Source of the DNA: Myxococcota bacterium
GTDB taxonomy: Bacteria > Myxococcota_A > Polyangia > Polyangiales > Houyiibacteriaceae
Assembly (NCBI GenBank): GCA_028284955.1
Contig: JANQQS010000041.1
Location: 1-47,461, forward strand
DNA length: 47,461 nt
Direction of reading: 5' to 3'
This document shows positions 10,947 through 25,744 of this stretch, in pieces; the first letter of the stretch is position 1, and every line of letters begins with the position of its first letter. The translations under genes and the position numbers were made by a program. The notes beneath the pieces were generated by a model. That model saw only the letters and a list, made by a program, of their open reading frames with translations, had not been told where the DNA came from and did no database searches.

Positions 10947-11747
10947 ATGAGCAAAGCTGGTCCATTCCTTCGCGAGCTCTGCGAAGAACGCAAAAACGTC
11001 GCAGGATTCGCGCTGATTGCATCGCTGGTCGCAATCGTTGGTTGTTCAGCAAGAGTCGAGCGGTTCGAGCCTCAAAAAGAGAAAAACACGACTCAAACCC
11101 CGATCCAGGATGGCAATATCCTGAACTTGTCCCAGAAAGCCTCGTGCGCTCGATATTCGTGGACGAAATGTACACAAACCGGCCGCGAGGCGAGTTGCCA
11201 CGAAGTTACTGTGAATCGGAGCCAAGCCAAGGCGATTCGATTTTCGATCGGGGAGACGATTGCGTACCAATACACAGGACGGTCCAAGCTCCGGCAGGAC
11301 GAGGCTCTGCTCAATCTAGTGATCGAAGACGCGGAGCCACATCGATTGAAAGACTGGGATGGGAAGCAATGTGACGTCGGGTGCAGCTTGTCGGTGAAGG
11401 CGGACTTACGGATGAGCACAGCCAACGTGAGTGGCAACGGTTCGACTCGACAGCTCTTCGCAGCTCAAGATTTATGTGGCCCGAACGACGAAGCTTCGTG
11501 CACGAGGCCTGCTCGAGACGTGAAGTTCGGTAATTCGCACCGGAGCATCCCGCCGTCCTTGGCGATGCTCTATTTGGGAGCGGACGCGGCGCATCTCCCT
11601 CAAAGCACACAAGTCCACTTAAAGTACATCGTGGTGTCGCCAAGCTCGACACCGAATCGCTCAGCGCAGATGTTCTTCAGTCAAGGAAAGCCAGGTGACG
11701 CGCCATTTGCCATGTTGACCCTGCACGGGTGCAACGAAGAGGGGTGA
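10947..11747 (+). CDS. Cys-rich putative lipoprotein
   Basis: This 266-residue product begins with a signal segment (NVAGFALIASLVAIVGC) whose lipobox Cys is near residue 32. A mature part with at least nine cysteines suggests disulfides. The ATG at 10947 is chosen because GCAGGAGAAG lies just upstream with correct spacing; the frame is open back to 10821 without such a site. Its C-terminal segment (GDAPFAMLTLHGCNEEG) ends 1 base before a duplicated fragment. No family was recognised. Confidence 0.75.
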   Translation: MSKAGPFLRELCEERKNVAGFALIASLVAIVGCSARVERFEPQKEKNTTQTPIQDGNILNLSQKASCARYSWTKCTQTGREASCHEVTVNRSQAKAIRFSIGETIAYQYTGRSKLRQDEALLNLVIEDAEPHRLKDWDGKQCDVGCSLSVKADLRMSTANVSGNGSTRQLFAAQDLCGPNDEASCTRPARDVKFGNSHRSIPPSLAMLYLGADAAHLPQSTQVHLKYIVVSPSSTPNRSAQMFFSQGKPGDAPFAMLTLHGCNEEG

Positions 11748-11748
11748 C

Positions 11749-11861
11749 CGCGCGCTACTGCGCCCGCGCGACCTGCACGTACAAGGCGCCGCTGCTGTCG
11801 CGACGAACCTCGAGCGTCCAGGGGCGGCAGCATACTTCGCAGTCTTCGACGATGGTCCCTT
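11749..11861 (-). pseudogene. Copied 3' fragment of the CPXCG gene (113-bp direct repeat, copy 1)
   Basis: This stretch repeats 13312-13424 with 111 of 113 bases identical. It encodes the last 31 or so residues of the CPXCG protein (TIVEDCEVCCRPWTLEV... to the stop at 11755) without a start. The repeat ends exactly inside the stop codon of the adenosine-deaminase-like gene. That gene reads in frame into it, separated only by the TAA. The layout shows a duplication or recombination that joined the fragment to the deaminase gene. Confidence 0.85.
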
Positions 11862-13026
11862 ACTGCACTTGCCCAACAAATCGCCGCGCTTGCGCAGCGG
11901 CACGGGCGGCTTGGCCAGCTGCAAGAAGTCTGGCAACCGTCATGTTCTCAGCCAGTGTTCCGATGTTGTCGGTACCCACATGCAATAGATCTCTTGGAAG
12001 CTGCAACGCAGCAATCGATTTCATGTTGTCGATGGACACTGCGCGAAACACGACATTGGAAAGCGGATTGACGTTCACCACCACGTTCGTTTTGCAGCGA
12101 AGACTGTTTAGAAGTTGTGTCGTTTCCGCTATGTCGTCGATGTAGACGGCGTGAGCAATGATGACCCGCAATCGACGAATTCGTTCGTCAGCCGCCCGCT
12201 GGGCAATGCTTCGCAAATACATATTCACGTTCCCTATGCCCCTGCGGCCCAGAAACCCCTCGCCGGCATGAATACGTAGAATCAGCTCTTTGTTCGCCGC
12301 GATGTCGAGCAGACGATCCAGAAGGCTCGTAAAGAAAGGCTCGCTGTCGTTACGTTCCTCCGCTCCGATGATGTCCACCCCGTGCACATCGGGATCATGA
12401 AGGAGCGCCAGAGCACGTTCGGTTCGAGATGACTGTTGATTGCGAAAGATTCCAACTATCGCGCGCAGTCTGCTCGCGGACCCGGGAATCGCGCCGAGCG
12501 CCCAGCGGTACGCGTCGATTTGCGCCGGAGCTATCTGCACGATTACGCGAGACACGCCCGATTTCATGATGCGCGCGATGCTGGCGTAGATCCAATCGTC
12601 GTGTCTCTCAAACGCGGCTTGGCGGAAACGCCGCACATGCTCGTAGGTTTGCTCAAAATTTCCTTGCCGAAGATCGAGCCGACTCTTCGCGTCCTCAAAC
12701 GCGTCGACATGCGCGGGATCGATCCCAAGAGCCCGAATTCCTGCCGAGACCGATCCATGCTCCTGCGCAACGTAGAGGAGTTGCTCGGGTTCAAGCACCC
12801 CAGATAGATGGACATGAGGATCTTCCTCGTTCCAGGCGCCACCGAACAGAGCCGATTTCGAGCGGCTCGTCTCGCCGGAGTCCTTGTGATTTGCCGGGCA
12901 GCCAACGTGAACGAGGGCCAACGAATAGAGCAAGACGGGCAGGAATTCGGTTTGGCCAAAGCAGGAAAAACAACGTGTGCCGAAAACAGCCAAACTCCCA
13001 CCGTGCTCCTCAAACGAGGCAAACAA
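11860..13026 (-). CDS. Adenosine-deaminase-family metallohydrolase, predicted lipoprotein, C-terminus cut by recombination
   Basis: The 388-residue protein carries the family's catalytic series: HVH (His71, His73), RIHAGEGF (His253, Glu256), AHAVY (His292), NPLSN (320-324) and GTDN (Asp353). These would bind zinc and deaminate adenosine-like nucleosides. Unusually, a hydrophobic segment with a lipobox-like LALVHVGC (Cys43) precedes the domain, implying export. No ATG is available. The frame opens with TTG at 13026, and another TTG lies 11 codons on, so the start is uncertain. Only about 35 residues follow the Asp353 motif. The stop codon lies at the junction with the copied CPXCG fragment, so the end is probably truncated. 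Activity is therefore uncertain. Confidence 0.7.
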   Translation of the reverse strand: MFASFEEHGGSLAVFGTRCFSCFGQTEFLPVLLYSLALVHVGCPANHKDSGETSRSKSALFGGAWNEEDPHVHLSGVLEPEQLLYVAQEHGSVSAGIRALGIDPAHVDAFEDAKSRLDLRQGNFEQTYEHVRRFRQAAFERHDDWIYASIARIMKSGVSRVIVQIAPAQIDAYRWALGAIPGSASRLRAIVGIFRNQQSSRTERALALLHDPDVHGVDIIGAEERNDSEPFFTSLLDRLLDIAANKELILRIHAGEGFLGRRGIGNVNMYLRSIAQRAADERIRRLRVIIAHAVYIDDIAETTQLLNSLRCKTNVVVNVNPLSNVVFRAVSIDNMKSIAALQLPRDLLHVGTDNIGTLAENMTVARLLAAGQAARAAAQARRFVGQVQ

Positions 13027-19539: not shown

Positions 19540-20448
19540 TTAGCGTTTGGCAGAAACCGACGCGTCCAAGAACGCTTTGCGGACGGCTTGGAGGCGGGCG
19601 GTTTCGTCGGTCCCTTTTCGCCACGCGATCCATATGGGTTTGCGGTACGAGGTTTCCGCGTTCTCTAAAGATACGCGCTCGAGCTCTCCGGTCTCGAGGG
19701 CATCGCCGAGCGCGAACGTGGGGACGATGGCGATGCCAAGCCCCCGCTTGGTCAGAGCCAGCGTTTCTCGAACTTCCTCTACGTCGCAGCGGTTCCGTTG
19801 GGGAGGGGGGCCGAGGTGGCCGTAGAGCGTTCCCCACCATGGGCCAATCATGCGCAACGAGTTGCCGAGGTACGCGTGCTCCCGCAGTTCTTCGGGAGTT
19901 TTCGGGGTTCCGTGTTGCGCGAAGTAGTCTGGCGAAGCCACCGCGACGATTTCTTCTTCGTACACTTGCGCCTTTTCGAGCGCTCCTGATTCGCGGTGTC
20001 CGAAATAGAGGCTGATGTCGAGCTCGCCCTGCAGGAGCTGGTCTTCGATCAATCCGGCATCACCAAACGCGACCTCGAGTTCGAGCTGGGGGTGATGTTC
20101 GAGCAGCTTTCGAATTCGCGGGCGAAGCCAGAACTGATAAAACGGCCCCGGTCCGCCAACCCGTACGCGGCCGCGAATATCGTCTCGGTTAGTTCGCGTC
20201 CCGTGCAAGGCGTCGTCGATATTTCGAAACTCGGGGGCCACTTTGTCGAGCAGCCCCATGGCGGCTTGCGTGGGTTTTGATCGGCGGCCCACCCGCTCAA
20301 AAAGCGGAAACCCGAGCTGCCCTTCGAGGGTTTTGATTTGATGGCTAATCGCCGAGGCGGTGATTCCTCGCCGCTTCGCCGCTTCGGAGAAGCTCGAGGC
20401 ATGAACGACCTCTACGAAGCTACGAAGGAGGTTGTAGTCAATCAGCAT
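19540..20448 (-). CDS. LysR-family transcriptional regulator
   Basis: The 302-residue protein has an N-terminal winged HTH (LLRSFVEVVHASSFSEAAKR, ITASAISHQIKTLEGQLGFP, LFERVGRRSKPT) and a periplasmic-binding-protein-like effector domain. The ATG at 20448 fits family length; the frame is open to 20487. It is divergent from the 54-residue peptide gene and the adenylating enzyme, which is the classic LysR arrangement, so these are its most likely targets. The effector is unknown. Confidence 0.9.
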   Translation of the reverse strand: MLIDYNLLRSFVEVVHASSFSEAAKRRGITASAISHQIKTLEGQLGFPLFERVGRRSKPTQAAMGLLDKVAPEFRNIDDALHGTRTNRDDIRGRVRVGGPGPFYQFWLRPRIRKLLEHHPQLELEVAFGDAGLIEDQLLQGELDISLYFGHRESGALEKAQVYEEEIVAVASPDYFAQHGTPKTPEELREHAYLGNSLRMIGPWWGTLYGHLGPPPQRNRCDVEEVRETLALTKRGLGIAIVPTFALGDALETGELERVSLENAETSYRKPIWIAWRKGTDETARLQAVRKAFLDASVSAKR

Positions 20449-20487: not shown

Positions 20488-20668
20488 TCATTGAGCCGCG
20501 CAGTCGTTGAGCCACACAGTCGTTGAGCAGAGCTCATCAGTTTCTCAAATGGTTTTCAGTAGACGGGAAGCAGCCGCCATGTGATGGATGCTTCCGTCGA
20601 TTGCAGCCCAACGCGGTCGAAGCGAACATAGACATATCATACAGAGAAAACAATAGAGGAAGATCATC
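20488..20668. promoter_or_regulatory. Divergent LysR/peptide control region with tandem repeats
   Basis: Near 20488-20535 the unit CAGTCGTTGAGC is repeated imperfectly (three ...TTGAGC boxes at about 16-bp spacing). LysR proteins bind long interrupted sites, so these are candidates. GAGGAAG at 20656-20662 is a good ribosome site for the downstream ATG. No confident -10/-35 pair could be assigned. Confidence 0.4.
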
Positions 20669-20833
20669 ATGAAAAAGAATGCACAATCAAACAGAGATCC
20701 GAAGGAACTCACGAAGGGCGTCGCGGACGCTCAGAACATGTTGAGCAAGATGAGTGAGAAAATGAGCCCAGCAGATCTCGCACAAACATTCGGCGGCGCG
20801 ACCGCGATCAATATGATGGACGACCTCAAGTAG
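20669..20833 (+). CDS. 54-residue peptide with double-glycine motif (candidate modified-peptide precursor)
   Basis: The peptide is MKKNAQSNRDPKELTKGVAD followed by AQNMLSKMSEKMSPADLAQT and FGGATAINMMDDLK. The ATG is preceded 6 bases away by GAGGAAG. The first half is basic and helical. The stretch MSPADLAQTFGG resembles leader ends of double-glycine peptides (L....L..V.GG), which would leave an 11-residue core, ATAINMMDDLK. There is no signal peptide, Cys, or run of Ser/Thr. The next gene downstream is an adenylate-forming enzyme, and a LysR gene is divergent. It may be a RiPP-like precursor or carrier substrate, or just a small regulatory protein. No peptidase or transporter gene is adjacent. 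Confidence 0.6.
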   Translation: MKKNAQSNRDPKELTKGVADAQNMLSKMSEKMSPADLAQTFGGATAINMMDDLK

Positions 20834-21009
20834 ATCGCTTTGGAAGTGCTGGCGGTTCTGTGCGTGGCAGATGGTTCTGCGCGCGAGGGTTTTGCGTGCG
20901 GAAGGCTCGCGTACAGGCCTGGCCAGCTTTCGAAAGACTTGCGGTACGATGCGCTGATTTTGAATTGGTTGTTTGTGGATTGATCGGTTTGGATTGAAGG
21001 ATGCTCGAC

Positions 21010-22401
21010 ATGGAATCGGCTCGATATGTTCGTCAAGAGATGCCGTGGAGCGATCCCGAAGTTGCGTCTGCGGCGATGCTTCGCGCGATGACGAGCGGGT
21101 GGGTTGAGTTCGAGGAACGAATGCAAGCGCTCGACAAGAAAGACGGGATTGCCGTGTTTCTGGAGCACTGCGTGACGCATGTCCCATTTTATCGGGCAAT
21201 GTTGGGACGAGACGGAGAAAACCCGCTCGAGCATGTGCGGTCAGGCGGGCTTCAATCATTTCCGGTCTTGGGACGAGCGGAGTTGATCGAATTTGCGTCG
21301 GATTTTCTGTCCACCCATGACCCGGCGCCCGCATGGCGCTTTTGGACGCACACGGGATCGACGATCCCGCCCGTCACAACGTTTACTGACCATGTCGGTT
21401 GGTACGGGATGTTGCTCGCGCAGTATGATGACATCGCCCTGCGAGAGCCCGCTTTTGTGGACGCGCTGCGTCCTGAACAACTTGCCGTTCTGGCCCTCGA
21501 TGGCTACGGCGGCGCACCGGTATTTCGGATGTTCATGCCGAACTTGCAGCTTTCCATTCGCGAATCGGCACGCTTCGGGCGCTCGCGAGCGAATAGCGGC
21601 GAACCGTTTTCAGATGAACTGCCTTCTTTGCAGGAGGACATCGAGCTTGTGCGACGGCTGCGGGTGAATCCGCCGCCGATGATTCATATGCGACCTTGGG
21701 GAGCGATGTGCATGGCGGATCTCGACGAATATTGCGACGCGTCGACCGAACGAATCCGACCTAAAGTTCTATTTCTCTCGGGCGGCAATCTATATGACGA
21801 CCATCGCCAGAGGCTCGAGCGCTGGTTCGAGTGCCCGGTGTACAACGCGTACGGCATCTCGGAGGGCGGGTGCGTGGCCGTTCAGGACCCAGGCCAGAAA
21901 GATTATGACGTCGTGCCGCGCGTGCACCTTGAAGTACGTCAAGAAGACGGTGAAACAAAAGAGGAGGGCACAGGGGAGATCGTGTTGACCAACCTGTGGA
22001 ACTGGACCATGCCGATCGTCCGTTATCGGACGGGAGACTGGGGAACGCTCCGCTGGGGAACTTCCGAAGACGGGTACCGGATTCAGAAGCTCTCGAACTT
22101 TTTTGGCAAGACCGCCCGCACGTTTCTTCGCGCCGGACGCCTCGTCGACCCCGCGCCCTTATTTCGGAAGATCGTGGAGCAGCTTCCTATCCGGCACTAC
22201 CAAGTGGAACAGCGCCCAGATGAGAGCCTGCTCTTTCGTTGGGTTCCGGAGGGTGAGCGCGACCATGACCGAACCGCAGCCGCAGCCGCGATTCGAGCGA
22301 GGGTTGCACAGCACTTTGGCGACGCGCCGCTTCACATCGAAGTCGCAAGCAGCCTCGTGGCCCGCTTTGGAAAGATGCACCGCTTCAGCCTGTCTTCTTG
22401 A
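21010..22401 (+). CDS. PaaK/CapK/F390-synthetase-like adenylate-forming enzyme
   Basis: This 463-residue soluble enzyme has the family landmarks: phosphate loop THTGSTIPPVTTF (about residue 117), YNAYGISEGG (about 280) and PIVRYRTGDWG (about 338). These belong to the phenylacetate-CoA-ligase-like branch, which activates a carboxylate, or in F390 synthetase a hydroxyl, with ATP. The ATG at 21010 has GAAGGA 8 bases upstream; the ATG at 21001 overlaps that site. It follows the 54-residue peptide gene by about 175 bp and has no neighbouring CoA-dependent pathway. Phenylacetate catabolism is therefore unlikely. Its 3' end overlaps the convergent mscS by 17 bases. Confidence 0.8.
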   Translation: MESARYVRQEMPWSDPEVASAAMLRAMTSGWVEFEERMQALDKKDGIAVFLEHCVTHVPFYRAMLGRDGENPLEHVRSGGLQSFPVLGRAELIEFASDFLSTHDPAPAWRFWTHTGSTIPPVTTFTDHVGWYGMLLAQYDDIALREPAFVDALRPEQLAVLALDGYGGAPVFRMFMPNLQLSIRESARFGRSRANSGEPFSDELPSLQEDIELVRRLRVNPPPMIHMRPWGAMCMADLDEYCDASTERIRPKVLFLSGGNLYDDHRQRLERWFECPVYNAYGISEGGCVAVQDPGQKDYDVVPRVHLEVRQEDGETKEEGTGEIVLTNLWNWTMPIVRYRTGDWGTLRWGTSEDGYRIQKLSNFFGKTARTFLRAGRLVDPAPLFRKIVEQLPIRHYQVEQRPDESLLFRWVPEGERDHDRTAAAAAIRARVAQHFGDAPLHIEVASSLVARFGKMHRFSLSS

Positions 22402-23293: not shown

Positions 23294-25744
23294 CTACGGC
23301 GCAGACATCGACGGAGGCAAATTATGTTTGCCGAATTCTTCGTTCGGGCGAGAACCCATCGAGAACTTGAGCTCGCCACCGGCCAGGAGCGTCTCGTGCT
23401 CGATCCACGCCCGGGTGAACGGCTGCCCGTTGAGGGTGGCGCTTTGAATGTAGCGATTCTCGGACGACGTGCCTTTCGCGCGAATGACGAATTTCTTTTC
23501 TCCAAGGTGCAGCGTGCTCTTTTCGAACAACGGGCTAGTGAGCACGTAGTACGGAAAACCGGGGGCTACGGGGTATAGACCGAGCGCGGTGAGCACAAAC
23601 CAGGCGGAGAGCTGTCCCGCGTCGTCGTTTCCGGTGATGCCGCCAGGGCCGAGCCCATATTCGGTATCTTGGAGTCGGCGCACAATATCTTGAGTGCGCC
23701 ATGCTTCGCCCGCGTATACGAACAGAAAGGGAACATGATGGCCGGGCTCATTGCCGTGCCAGTAGTAGCCGGCGTCGAACATGGCGCGAAGCCGCTCGAC
23801 GAACGTTTCGCGACCCATGAGCTCAACTAAGCCAGCCACGTCATGAGGCACGAAGAAGGTATAGTGCCACGCGGTGCCTTCGGTGAAATAGGGCTGCCGA
23901 GCCGCTGGATCAAAAGGTGTCGCCCAGCGTCCGTCGCGATGGCGGCCGCGCATGAATCCCGTCGACGTATCGAATACGTTTCGGTAGTTGGTGGCGCGCT
24001 TCTCGAGGTCACGAACGTCTTTGCCAAGCGCGCGGCCGAGTTGAGCGAGGGCGAAGTCGTTGTACGCGTACTCCAGCGTCCGAGAGACTTGCTCCGCTTC
24101 GTGAAACGCTTCGGCTATCGGCTCTTCCAGCGGAAGATATCCGTGCGCGACGTACGCGGGTAGGGCGCGTCGTCCTTTCCCGTCGACATATTCATTGCGC
24201 GGCGGGGTGTCGTGCGCGTTTTGTTTGAGCAGCCGAAAAGCGTCTTCGGCGTCGAAATCGGTGACGCCCTTGACGTATGCGTCGGCGATGATCGACGACA
24301 GATGGTCTCCGATCATCGCGGATGTATAGCTATTCCACATGGGAAACGTAGGCATCCAGCCGCCGTCTTGCCCTTTGCGCACCAGCGAACGCACCAGGTC
24401 GCGCGTCGTTTTCGGAGCGAGTAGCGTCAGCAAAGGATGCACGGCGCGAAAGGTGTCCCACGCTGAAAAATCGCCGTAGTATGGGCGACCTTTCTCTTCG
24501 ACGAGATTCCCGCGGCTGAACGCTGGAAACGATCCGTCCGTATCGCTCATCGTTCGCGGATGAAGCAGCGCGTGGTAGAGGCTGGTGTAGAACTTGATGC
24601 AGTCGTCTCGCGAACCTTCGACGTGTACACGGCCAAGCAGATCACTCCACGCCGCTTGCGATTGCTTGTGCACCGCGGCCAAACTCCACTCTGGAATCTC
24701 AGCCTCGAGGTTTCTCTTGGCCCGCGCGATGTCGGTAAACGAAGTGCCCATCTTCGCGCGTACTATGTTGTCTGACGGAAGATCGAAGCGAACGTAGGCG
24801 CCCACGGTTTCGCCAGGGTGAGCGGTGCGGTTCGCGCCGGCGGTTTTTTTCGCTTCGGTTTTTTTCGCTTCGGTTTTTTTTACGTCGGGCCCGTGCGCTG
24901 ACATCGTGCCAGGGTGGACCTTGGTTCCTGCAAATGTGCCGAACTCGGCGAACGGCTGGTCGAAGACCACTACGGCATGACCCGAAAACCCAGCCCGTTT
25001 TCCGTGTCCTTGATAGATTCGATGCACCGGGTTTTCGGCGTGAATAGTTCGGGATTGGGGATCGACGACCACCTGTCCTAAACCCTCGTCGCTATTCGGC
25101 TCGAATACGATGTACGCGGGCTCACCCTTCGGAAAACGAAACTCGAAGATGCCCGATCGAGATCGTCCGCTCATCCGAACAACAACGCCGCTATCGAGCG
25201 TGACCTGGTAGAGCGATGGTCGGGCAACCTCGCGCGTATGCCGGAAATCTGACGCGCGGTCTCGCGCGGCAACCCGGAGAGGACCTGCGACGGGCATCAA
25301 GGTGAAGCTTCCGTAGTCTTGAACGCAGCCGCCGCTCAGCCAGTGGGTGGCGCGAAACCCGTGAATCTGGATGTCTTCATAGTAGTACGGAGCCACGCAC
25401 TTTTTCTCGCTCGCGCGGGTCTGAGGCGTCCAATACGTCATGCCATGCGGCACGCCGACCATCGGCAACGTATGAGGACGGAGCTCCGTTCCGTCTCCGT
25501 GGCGCTTGGCGCTTGGTGTGTCGGAAGTGCCCGTTCCGGTGCGGGTGTCGATGAGGAACGCGTAGTCTCCGGCAACTCGAGCTGGGCGCGCGTTCGAACT
25601 AGATCCACGCGCGGAATCGGGAGGCGGCTCGATGGCGACGGGATGTGCATCCCATCTCAAGAAAAGCGAAGCCAGAACCAATATCCGAGCTAGCCCATGC
25701 CTCGGAACATTTGTTGCCGCTTCGTTCGTGGATCGGCCGGCCAC
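23294..25744 (-). CDS. GH92-family alpha-mannosidase, secreted
   Basis: The 816-residue protein has an N-terminal export segment (LARILVLASLFLRWDAHPVA). The GH92 hallmarks are HTLPMVGVPHGMTYWTP, FRATHWLSGGCVQDYGSFTL, FYTSLYHALLHPRTMSDTDG, FSAWDTFRAVHPLLTLL and GNDDAGQLSAWFVLTALGLY-PV. These enzymes are calcium-dependent exo-mannosidases acting on N-glycan-like or yeast mannans. The start is GTG at 25744, 32 bp after the TetR stop on the same strand; the ribosome site is weak. In the middle lies a Lys-rich repeat (KKTEA KKTEA KKTAG) from three T-runs of 7, 7 and 8 in the DNA at 24844-24881. It may be a slippage site. Confidence 0.9.
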   Translation of the reverse strand: MAGRSTNEAATNVPRHGLARILVLASLFLRWDAHPVAIEPPPDSARGSSSNARPARVAGDYAFLIDTRTGTGTSDTPSAKRHGDGTELRPHTLPMVGVPHGMTYWTPQTRASEKKCVAPYYYEDIQIHGFRATHWLSGGCVQDYGSFTLMPVAGPLRVAARDRASDFRHTREVARPSLYQVTLDSGVVVRMSGRSRSGIFEFRFPKGEPAYIVFEPNSDEGLGQVVVDPQSRTIHAENPVHRIYQGHGKRAGFSGHAVVVFDQPFAEFGTFAGTKVHPGTMSAHGPDVKKTEAKKTEAKKTAGANRTAHPGETVGAYVRFDLPSDNIVRAKMGTSFTDIARAKRNLEAEIPEWSLAAVHKQSQAAWSDLLGRVHVEGSRDDCIKFYTSLYHALLHPRTMSDTDGSFPAFSRGNLVEEKGRPYYGDFSAWDTFRAVHPLLTLLAPKTTRDLVRSLVRKGQDGGWMPTFPMWNSYTSAMIGDHLSSIIADAYVKGVTDFDAEDAFRLLKQNAHDTPPRNEYVDGKGRRALPAYVAHGYLPLEEPIAEAFHEAEQVSRTLEYAYNDFALAQLGRALGKDVRDLEKRATNYRNVFDTSTGFMRGRHRDGRWATPFDPAARQPYFTEGTAWHYTFFVPHDVAGLVELMGRETFVERLRAMFDAGYYWHGNEPGHHVPFLFVYAGEAWRTQDIVRRLQDTEYGLGPGGITGNDDAGQLSAWFVLTALGLYPVAPGFPYYVLTSPLFEKSTLHLGEKKFVIRAKGTSSENRYIQSATLNGQPFTRAWIEHETLLAGGELKFSMGSRPNEEFGKHNLPPSMSAP
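24844..24881. repeat. Homopolymeric T-runs in a 15-bp tandem repeat inside GH92
   Basis: Runs of T occur at 24844-24850, 24859-24865 and 24874-24881, separated each time by CGCTTCGG. On the coding strand they are A-runs encoding Lys-Lys within KKTEA units. Slippage in these tracts could change frame or add units. Confidence 0.8.

Follow-up and report, generated by a model that had tools for sequence, protein, structure and literature searches.

The 47,461-nucleotide stretch of DNA that we analyzed (the window) contains a small gene followed by a stand-alone adenylate-forming enzyme gene, which raises the question of whether the enzyme acts on the encoded peptide. An earlier note on this DNA had described a 54-codon gene with a strong ribosome site, a leader ending in AQTFGG and followed by ATAINMMDDLK, an adenylating enzyme after the peptide, and a divergent LysR gene. 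Our re-examination bore out each of these: the small ORF is preceded by AGAGGAAG, its translation reads MKKNAQSNRDPKELTKGVADAQNMLSKMSEKMSPADLAQTFGG and then the eleven-residue tail, the enzyme is PaaK-like by both NCBIfam and fold, and the regulator has a LysR domain match. The features of the locus are as follows.

19540..20448, minus strand: divergent LysR regulator gene (domain search)
20655..20662, plus strand: Shine-Dalgarno-like AGAGGAAG of the peptide gene, with the ATG 6 nt further on (sequence)
20669..20833, plus strand: precursor-like peptide gene, 54 aa, stop TAG, one of a family of 11 paralogues
20669-20797, plus strand: peptide leader, MKK...AQTFGG (sequence)
20798-20830, plus strand: peptide tail, ATAINMMDDLK (sequence)
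20838..20936, plus strand: predicted hairpin in the peptide-enzyme spacer, starting 4 nt past the peptide stop (RNA folding)
21001..22401, plus strand: PaaK-like adenylating enzyme (ANL), 466 aa (family models, fold)

The window peptide alone had no match in Pfam or NCBIfam. The enzyme gene has an alternative ATG at 21010, whose distance from the Shine-Dalgarno site is more favorable. Downstream of the pair lie an MscS channel gene and then a glycosyl hydrolase family 92 (alpha-mannosidase type) gene (23294-25744, minus strand); we saw no recurring link between the latter and the peptide-enzyme units described below.

Assignment of the enzyme to the PaaK type

The NCBIfam models placed the window enzyme weakly but consistently near PaaK, F390 and BagE-FevW, with scores far from the equivalog cutoffs (PaaK, 33.8 vs 646.3 bits; coenzyme F390 synthetase, 19.1 vs 458.7 bits), and its only Pfam AMP-binding match was sub-threshold. 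The AF2 model of the enzyme was confident (pLDDT 86.8), and its best PDB matches were the PaaK-family structures BT_0428, PaaK1, AjiA1, NatL2 and ClxA, at only 15-18% identity. Besides this fold, the residues expected of a PaaK-type ANL enzyme were present and invariant in the window enzyme and the eleven relatives described below: the A5 glutamate (E288), the YRTGD motif with its aspartate (342-346) and the C-terminal lysine (K458). K458 aligned with the lysine of the PaaK1 GKARR motif, which we identify as the Lys422 named as the alpha-phosphate lysine in PMC7204872. Several members, the window enzyme among them, have a degenerate P-loop, and we count this against the reading in which the ligase acts on the peptide. 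Two of the related enzymes also carry low-complexity repeats, internal or N-terminal, namely NTGRPNTGRSNTQRPNTQ in C112 (L032:7170-8756, minus strand) and DAEPDAEPDADAEPD in C165 (L024:7543-9153, minus strand).

Eleven copies of the peptide-enzyme unit in one genome

When used as a query against its own genome, the window enzyme recovered eleven paralogues at about 30-38% identity. A profile built from the 12 enzymes, with all 72 candidates scored, placed exactly 12 clade members in this genome, and these formed one clade (FastTree support 0.978) in a tree of 166 sequences. The earlier note had proposed asking whether every enzyme homologue has a small GG-tailed ORF on its 5' side. Such an ORF, on the same strand and with its stop 0-170 nt 5' of the enzyme start, accompanied 11 of the 12 clade enzymes and none of 166 more distant PaaK-like ORFs taken from a wide range of phyla as well as from the same order; the varied neighborhoods lacking a conserved small ORF that the note had named as contrary evidence were therefore not what we found for this clade. 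The twelfth enzyme (C198, plus strand) is encoded divergently from another enzyme-peptide pair, whose enzyme is its sister in the tree. Under a fixed pattern, a GG-type small ORF no more than 700 nt upstream of the enzyme, the counts were 9/12 in the clade and 0/166 in the comparison set (Fisher p 5e-13). The units are scattered over eleven loci, where neighbors other than LysR and symporter genes vary. A precursor gene steadily linked to the gene of a tailoring-type enzyme, the arrangement expected of ribosomally synthesized and post-translationally modified peptides (RiPPs), is thus what the clade displays.

The eleven partner ORFs (49-68 codons) share a common plan that consists of a Lys/Arg-rich start, an amphipathic helix, L-S/T-x-E-E-L-like residues, the GG motif of double-glycine leader precursors and a variable tail of 8-19 residues. 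The GG is present in 10 of the 11, with GD plus an insertion in C146, and every gene is preceded by a Shine-Dalgarno site of the AGGA or GAGGA type. Pooled over the 11 genes, GC content by codon position was 0.62/0.41/0.62, and the AF2 model of the peptide placed a helix at residues 11-31 with low confidence. A peptide profile run on the whole genome gave 11 significant matches (E about 2e-14 or better), all adjoining the enzymes; as those same 11 peptides had gone into the profile, this result is in part circular. A leave-one-out search avoids the circularity: each peptide was sought with an HMM of the remaining ten among 10,315 small ORFs, and 9 of 11 were recovered (E 2e-10 to 1.6e-5), the divergent C146 and C198b peptides giving no significant match in that set. 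The best non-members, at about 0.001 to 0.03, appear to belong to a further family of GG peptides encoded in this genome. Because 11 of 12 enzymes have the ORF, leave-one-out recovery reached 9 of 11 and Shine-Dalgarno sites precede 11 of 11, the association exceeds chance, and we regard it as almost certain that this GG-leader peptide family is truly paired with this clade of PaaK-like ligases.

The spacers within the units provided a further feature. The 167-nt spacer of the window had a minimum free energy of -64.7 kcal/mol (z -2.74), and six of the seven long spacers (≥70 nt) folded better than their dinucleotide shuffles (z -2.4 to -4.8), with the predicted hairpin directly 3' of the peptide stop in all six. 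Of 102 control spacers, about 10-12% had z < -2 (Mann-Whitney p about 1e-4 vs unit spacers), and no classic intrinsic terminator was found in the unit spacers. A stem-loop right after the precursor gene is familiar from lantibiotic operons, in which it raises precursor over enzyme. We take the predicted hairpins to favor, short of proof, the reading of the small ORFs as precursors. The peptide and enzyme genes are presumably co-transcribed. The C211 spacer before the enzyme (L030:8976-9145, minus strand) also holds short GAATGATGTCGCT-like tandem repeats besides its hairpin.

Searches of 318 genomes of the class turned up no other carrier of the enzyme clade or of the peptide family, and the clade was likewise not found in a 379-genome sample of the phylum. 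With the enzyme as query, matches appeared in three of the 33 other genomes of the family, all of them weak and partial, and plasmid and viral collections returned distant ligases only. Class-wide HMM matches to the peptide were weak and partial, and the five that we inspected sit in unrelated reading frames. The nearest enzyme gene outside (G578) is CapK-like, and the polysaccharide-type locus around it has no small GG ORF. As the enzymes form one clade and other genomes yielded none, the unit represents, among the genomes searched, an expansion in one lineage. Since the collection of named genomes was covered only among the matches listed, the unit may be distributed more widely.

What the enzyme may do to the peptide

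A LysR gene adjoins 6 of the 11 units (C108, C165, C188, C146, C211 and C72), out of 31 in the genome. In a tree that included 25 of these 31, five of the six unit LysR genes fell in one clade (support 0.989) together with three that have no unit (C99, C89 and C213). Sodium/solute symporter genes, of which the genome has 6, adjoin four units (C166/L023, C146/L027, C211/L030 and C112/L032). The four symporters are not one duplicated block, since C146 and C211 are about 50% identical and the remaining pairings about 30%. Calculated post hoc and assuming about 5,200 genes, the chance of such adjacency is about 2e-9 for LysR and about 4e-9 for the symporters. A fifth symporter gene (C16) lies near a contig end.

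Our best reading of these data is that the unit is a lineage-restricted, RiPP-like peptide-maturation family whose sole constant enzyme is an ANL/PaaK ligase. We give a probability of about 0.5 to the proposal that this enzyme is a dedicated ATP-dependent tailoring ligase that transfers an acyl group onto the GG-leader precursor, which we prefer on account of the fold, the CoA-independent relatives, the linkage to LysR and symporter genes, and the presence of Ser or Thr in every tail. As acyl donor we infer a small solute that is probably a carboxylic acid and that would be made by the cell or imported (by the symporter at some units) and sensed by LysR. The enzyme would adenylate its carboxylate and then, with no CoA involved, acylate the leader-bound peptide, where the attachment site may be a Ser or Thr of the tail or a terminus. 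A C39-ABC exporter encoded elsewhere would cut after the GG and export the product, and the eleven diverged copies would yield eleven products. Direct acyl transfer of this sort is established within the PaaK family, since NatL2 makes an ester from the adenylate (PMC7204872) and ClxA is reported to be able to form esters as well (PMC12519233). We count it against the acyl-transfer proposal that LysR and symporter genes stand next to some units only, that the tails share no acceptor residue, that the exporter is unlinked and has other possible GG-peptide cargo, and that C146 and C198b failed leave-one-out recovery. On the same side is the lack of significant co-variation between peptide and enzyme distances (Mantel r 0.13, p 0.25); at such divergence this neither supports nor rules out interaction.

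In a rival reading, the substrate that the enzyme adenylates would be the carboxylate at the C-terminus of the peptide itself, still bound to its leader as scaffold, and an amine or some other nucleophile would be coupled there, much as the C-terminus is activated in microcin C or extended in the pearlins. The final tail residue is Ala or Gly in 8 of the 11 peptides, against 11% of 234 called genes of the genome (p 3e-6, post hoc), a statistic that is weakened by the overall Ala and Gly richness of the tails (27% of residues). The 11 tails have no conserved internal residue, which suits a terminal modification; however, Lys is the last residue of the window peptide, and we know of no ANL enzyme that adenylates a peptide C-terminus, the relatives activating small acids. 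We consider C-terminal activation unlikely by itself, and taking both routes together it is likely that the ligase modifies the peptide in some way. About as improbable as C-terminal activation is an arrangement of two functions under one regulator, with an unmodified secreted signal or effector peptide beside an enzyme that makes or activates a separate small molecule. The LysR and solute symporter genes do suggest small-molecule sensing and uptake, and other GG peptides of the genome are located away from the PaaK-like ligase; on the other hand, the near one-to-one linkage is kept at 11 scattered loci while other neighbors vary, and the genome has no further PaaK-like gene without such peptide company.

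If the small protein were not secreted but served the enzyme as a subunit or activator, as MbtH-like proteins do for adenylation domains, this would also account for its invariable pairing with an adenylating enzyme and for its conserved helical region. Such a role is distinctly improbable given the GG in nearly all peptides with a hypervariable tail after it, the weak leader matches to bacteriocin and RiPP families, and the spacer hairpins; moreover, no MbtH-family match was obtained for the window peptide (Pfam, NCBIfam) or for 8 other peptides (NCBIfam). Least credible of all is a chance or upstream regulatory ORF without a functional product: the window peptide does lack a database match and a credible relative in the other genomes searched, but this reading is contradicted by the eleven copies, their leave-one-out recovery, the ribosome site in every case and the empty outgroup.

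Export and comparison with known systems

The earlier note had held the lack of a nearby protease or exporter against the idea that the enzyme acts on the peptide. Although this is true of the locus, it does not hold for the genome, whose only C39 peptidase is encoded on contig C97 (L034:6641-12185, minus strand) as a fusion with an ABC exporter. A C39-ABC exporter of the type that serves double-glycine leader precursors is thus present in trans, unlinked to any unit, and removes the objection. Its C39 domain has the Cys motif DCGPSC, its best NCBIfam model is the NHLP bacteriocin exporter (below cutoff), and it lies beside HlyD-like and TolC-like genes, both named by sequence reading rather than by family search. 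This exporter may process the unit peptides by C39 cleavage, and at least four other GG-type peptides of the genome are rival candidates for its cargo. Sensor-kinase, response-regulator and universal-stress-type genes were also observed among its neighbors.

The unit peptides resemble known GG-leader peptides (class II bacteriocins, class II lanthipeptides, TIGR04149) in having an L-S/T-x-E-E-L-like helix that ends in GG before a short variable tail, and they resemble C39-exported peptides in that their genome encodes a C39-ABC exporter, although here it is not linked to the units. Unlike those families, their partner is an ANL/PaaK ligase, and no leader exceeded the cutoff of any curated GG-leader family, the sub-cutoff matches being to TIGR04149 (best, E 0.0018), lichenicidin and cerein 7B. 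Unlike most bacteriocins, the tails lack Cys and hydrophobic character. The enzymes of the pearlins (PEARLs) and microcin C (MccB) offer a parallel, being ATP-driven and acting on the C-terminal end of small encoded peptides; however, both belong to enzyme families unrelated to the unit ligase. MccB is E1-like, and PEARLs extend scaffold peptides using aminoacyl-tRNA. The unit enzymes have their fold and family in common with NatL2, AjiA1 and ClxA, and also with BagE/FevW. For NatL2 and ClxA, CoA-independent chemistry from adenylate to ester or amide is established; in contrast to the unit enzymes, these relatives join small aromatic acids and have no peptide partner. An adenylating enzyme that activates a small acid within a RiPP pathway is known from nosiheptide, where NosI loads the carrier protein NosJ and did not modify the precursor NosM (PMC5585349). 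Unlike the case of NosI, no carrier protein or NosK-like hydrolase recurred among the called and annotated neighbors of the units, a set in which very small carrier genes could be missed.

In the literature searched, which covered few subscription journals, we found no RiPP pathway with an ANL/PaaK ligase as its sole partner enzyme, and the novelty of the ligase-peptide pairing is therefore provisional. That the eleven units, each with its own tail and some with their own regulator or importer, amount to a new class of ribosomal peptide natural product defined by a PaaK-like ANL ligase that works directly on the GG-leader precursors is a tentative proposal, to which we assign slightly less than an even chance. 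If the ligase does act on the peptide, the units would offer a compact, genetically encoded means of attaching carboxylic acids to ribosomal peptides, and specificity could be tested on 11 natural pairs of peptide and enzyme. Units of this kind can escape RiPP searches built on known enzymes or on a local exporter.

The genome also contains a second family of GG-type small peptides, with the pattern K-L-x-x-x-R-x-x-I-G-L-R ... GG and no adjoining PaaK-like ligase, which is possibly further cargo of the lone C39 exporter. Its members were recognized from sequence at the following positions.

L155:1501-1689 (C164), plus strand: second-family GG peptide
L164:8332-8523 (C205), minus strand: second-family GG peptide
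L025:12195-12389 (C188), minus strand: second-family GG peptide

Finally, on C179 (L165:8603-12589, minus strand), a GG-type peptide ORF lies near a gene for an MvdC/MvdD-type ATP-grasp ribosomal peptide maturase (11087-12214), with another small ORF at 12374-12589, so that the same genome holds a graspetide-like locus as well.
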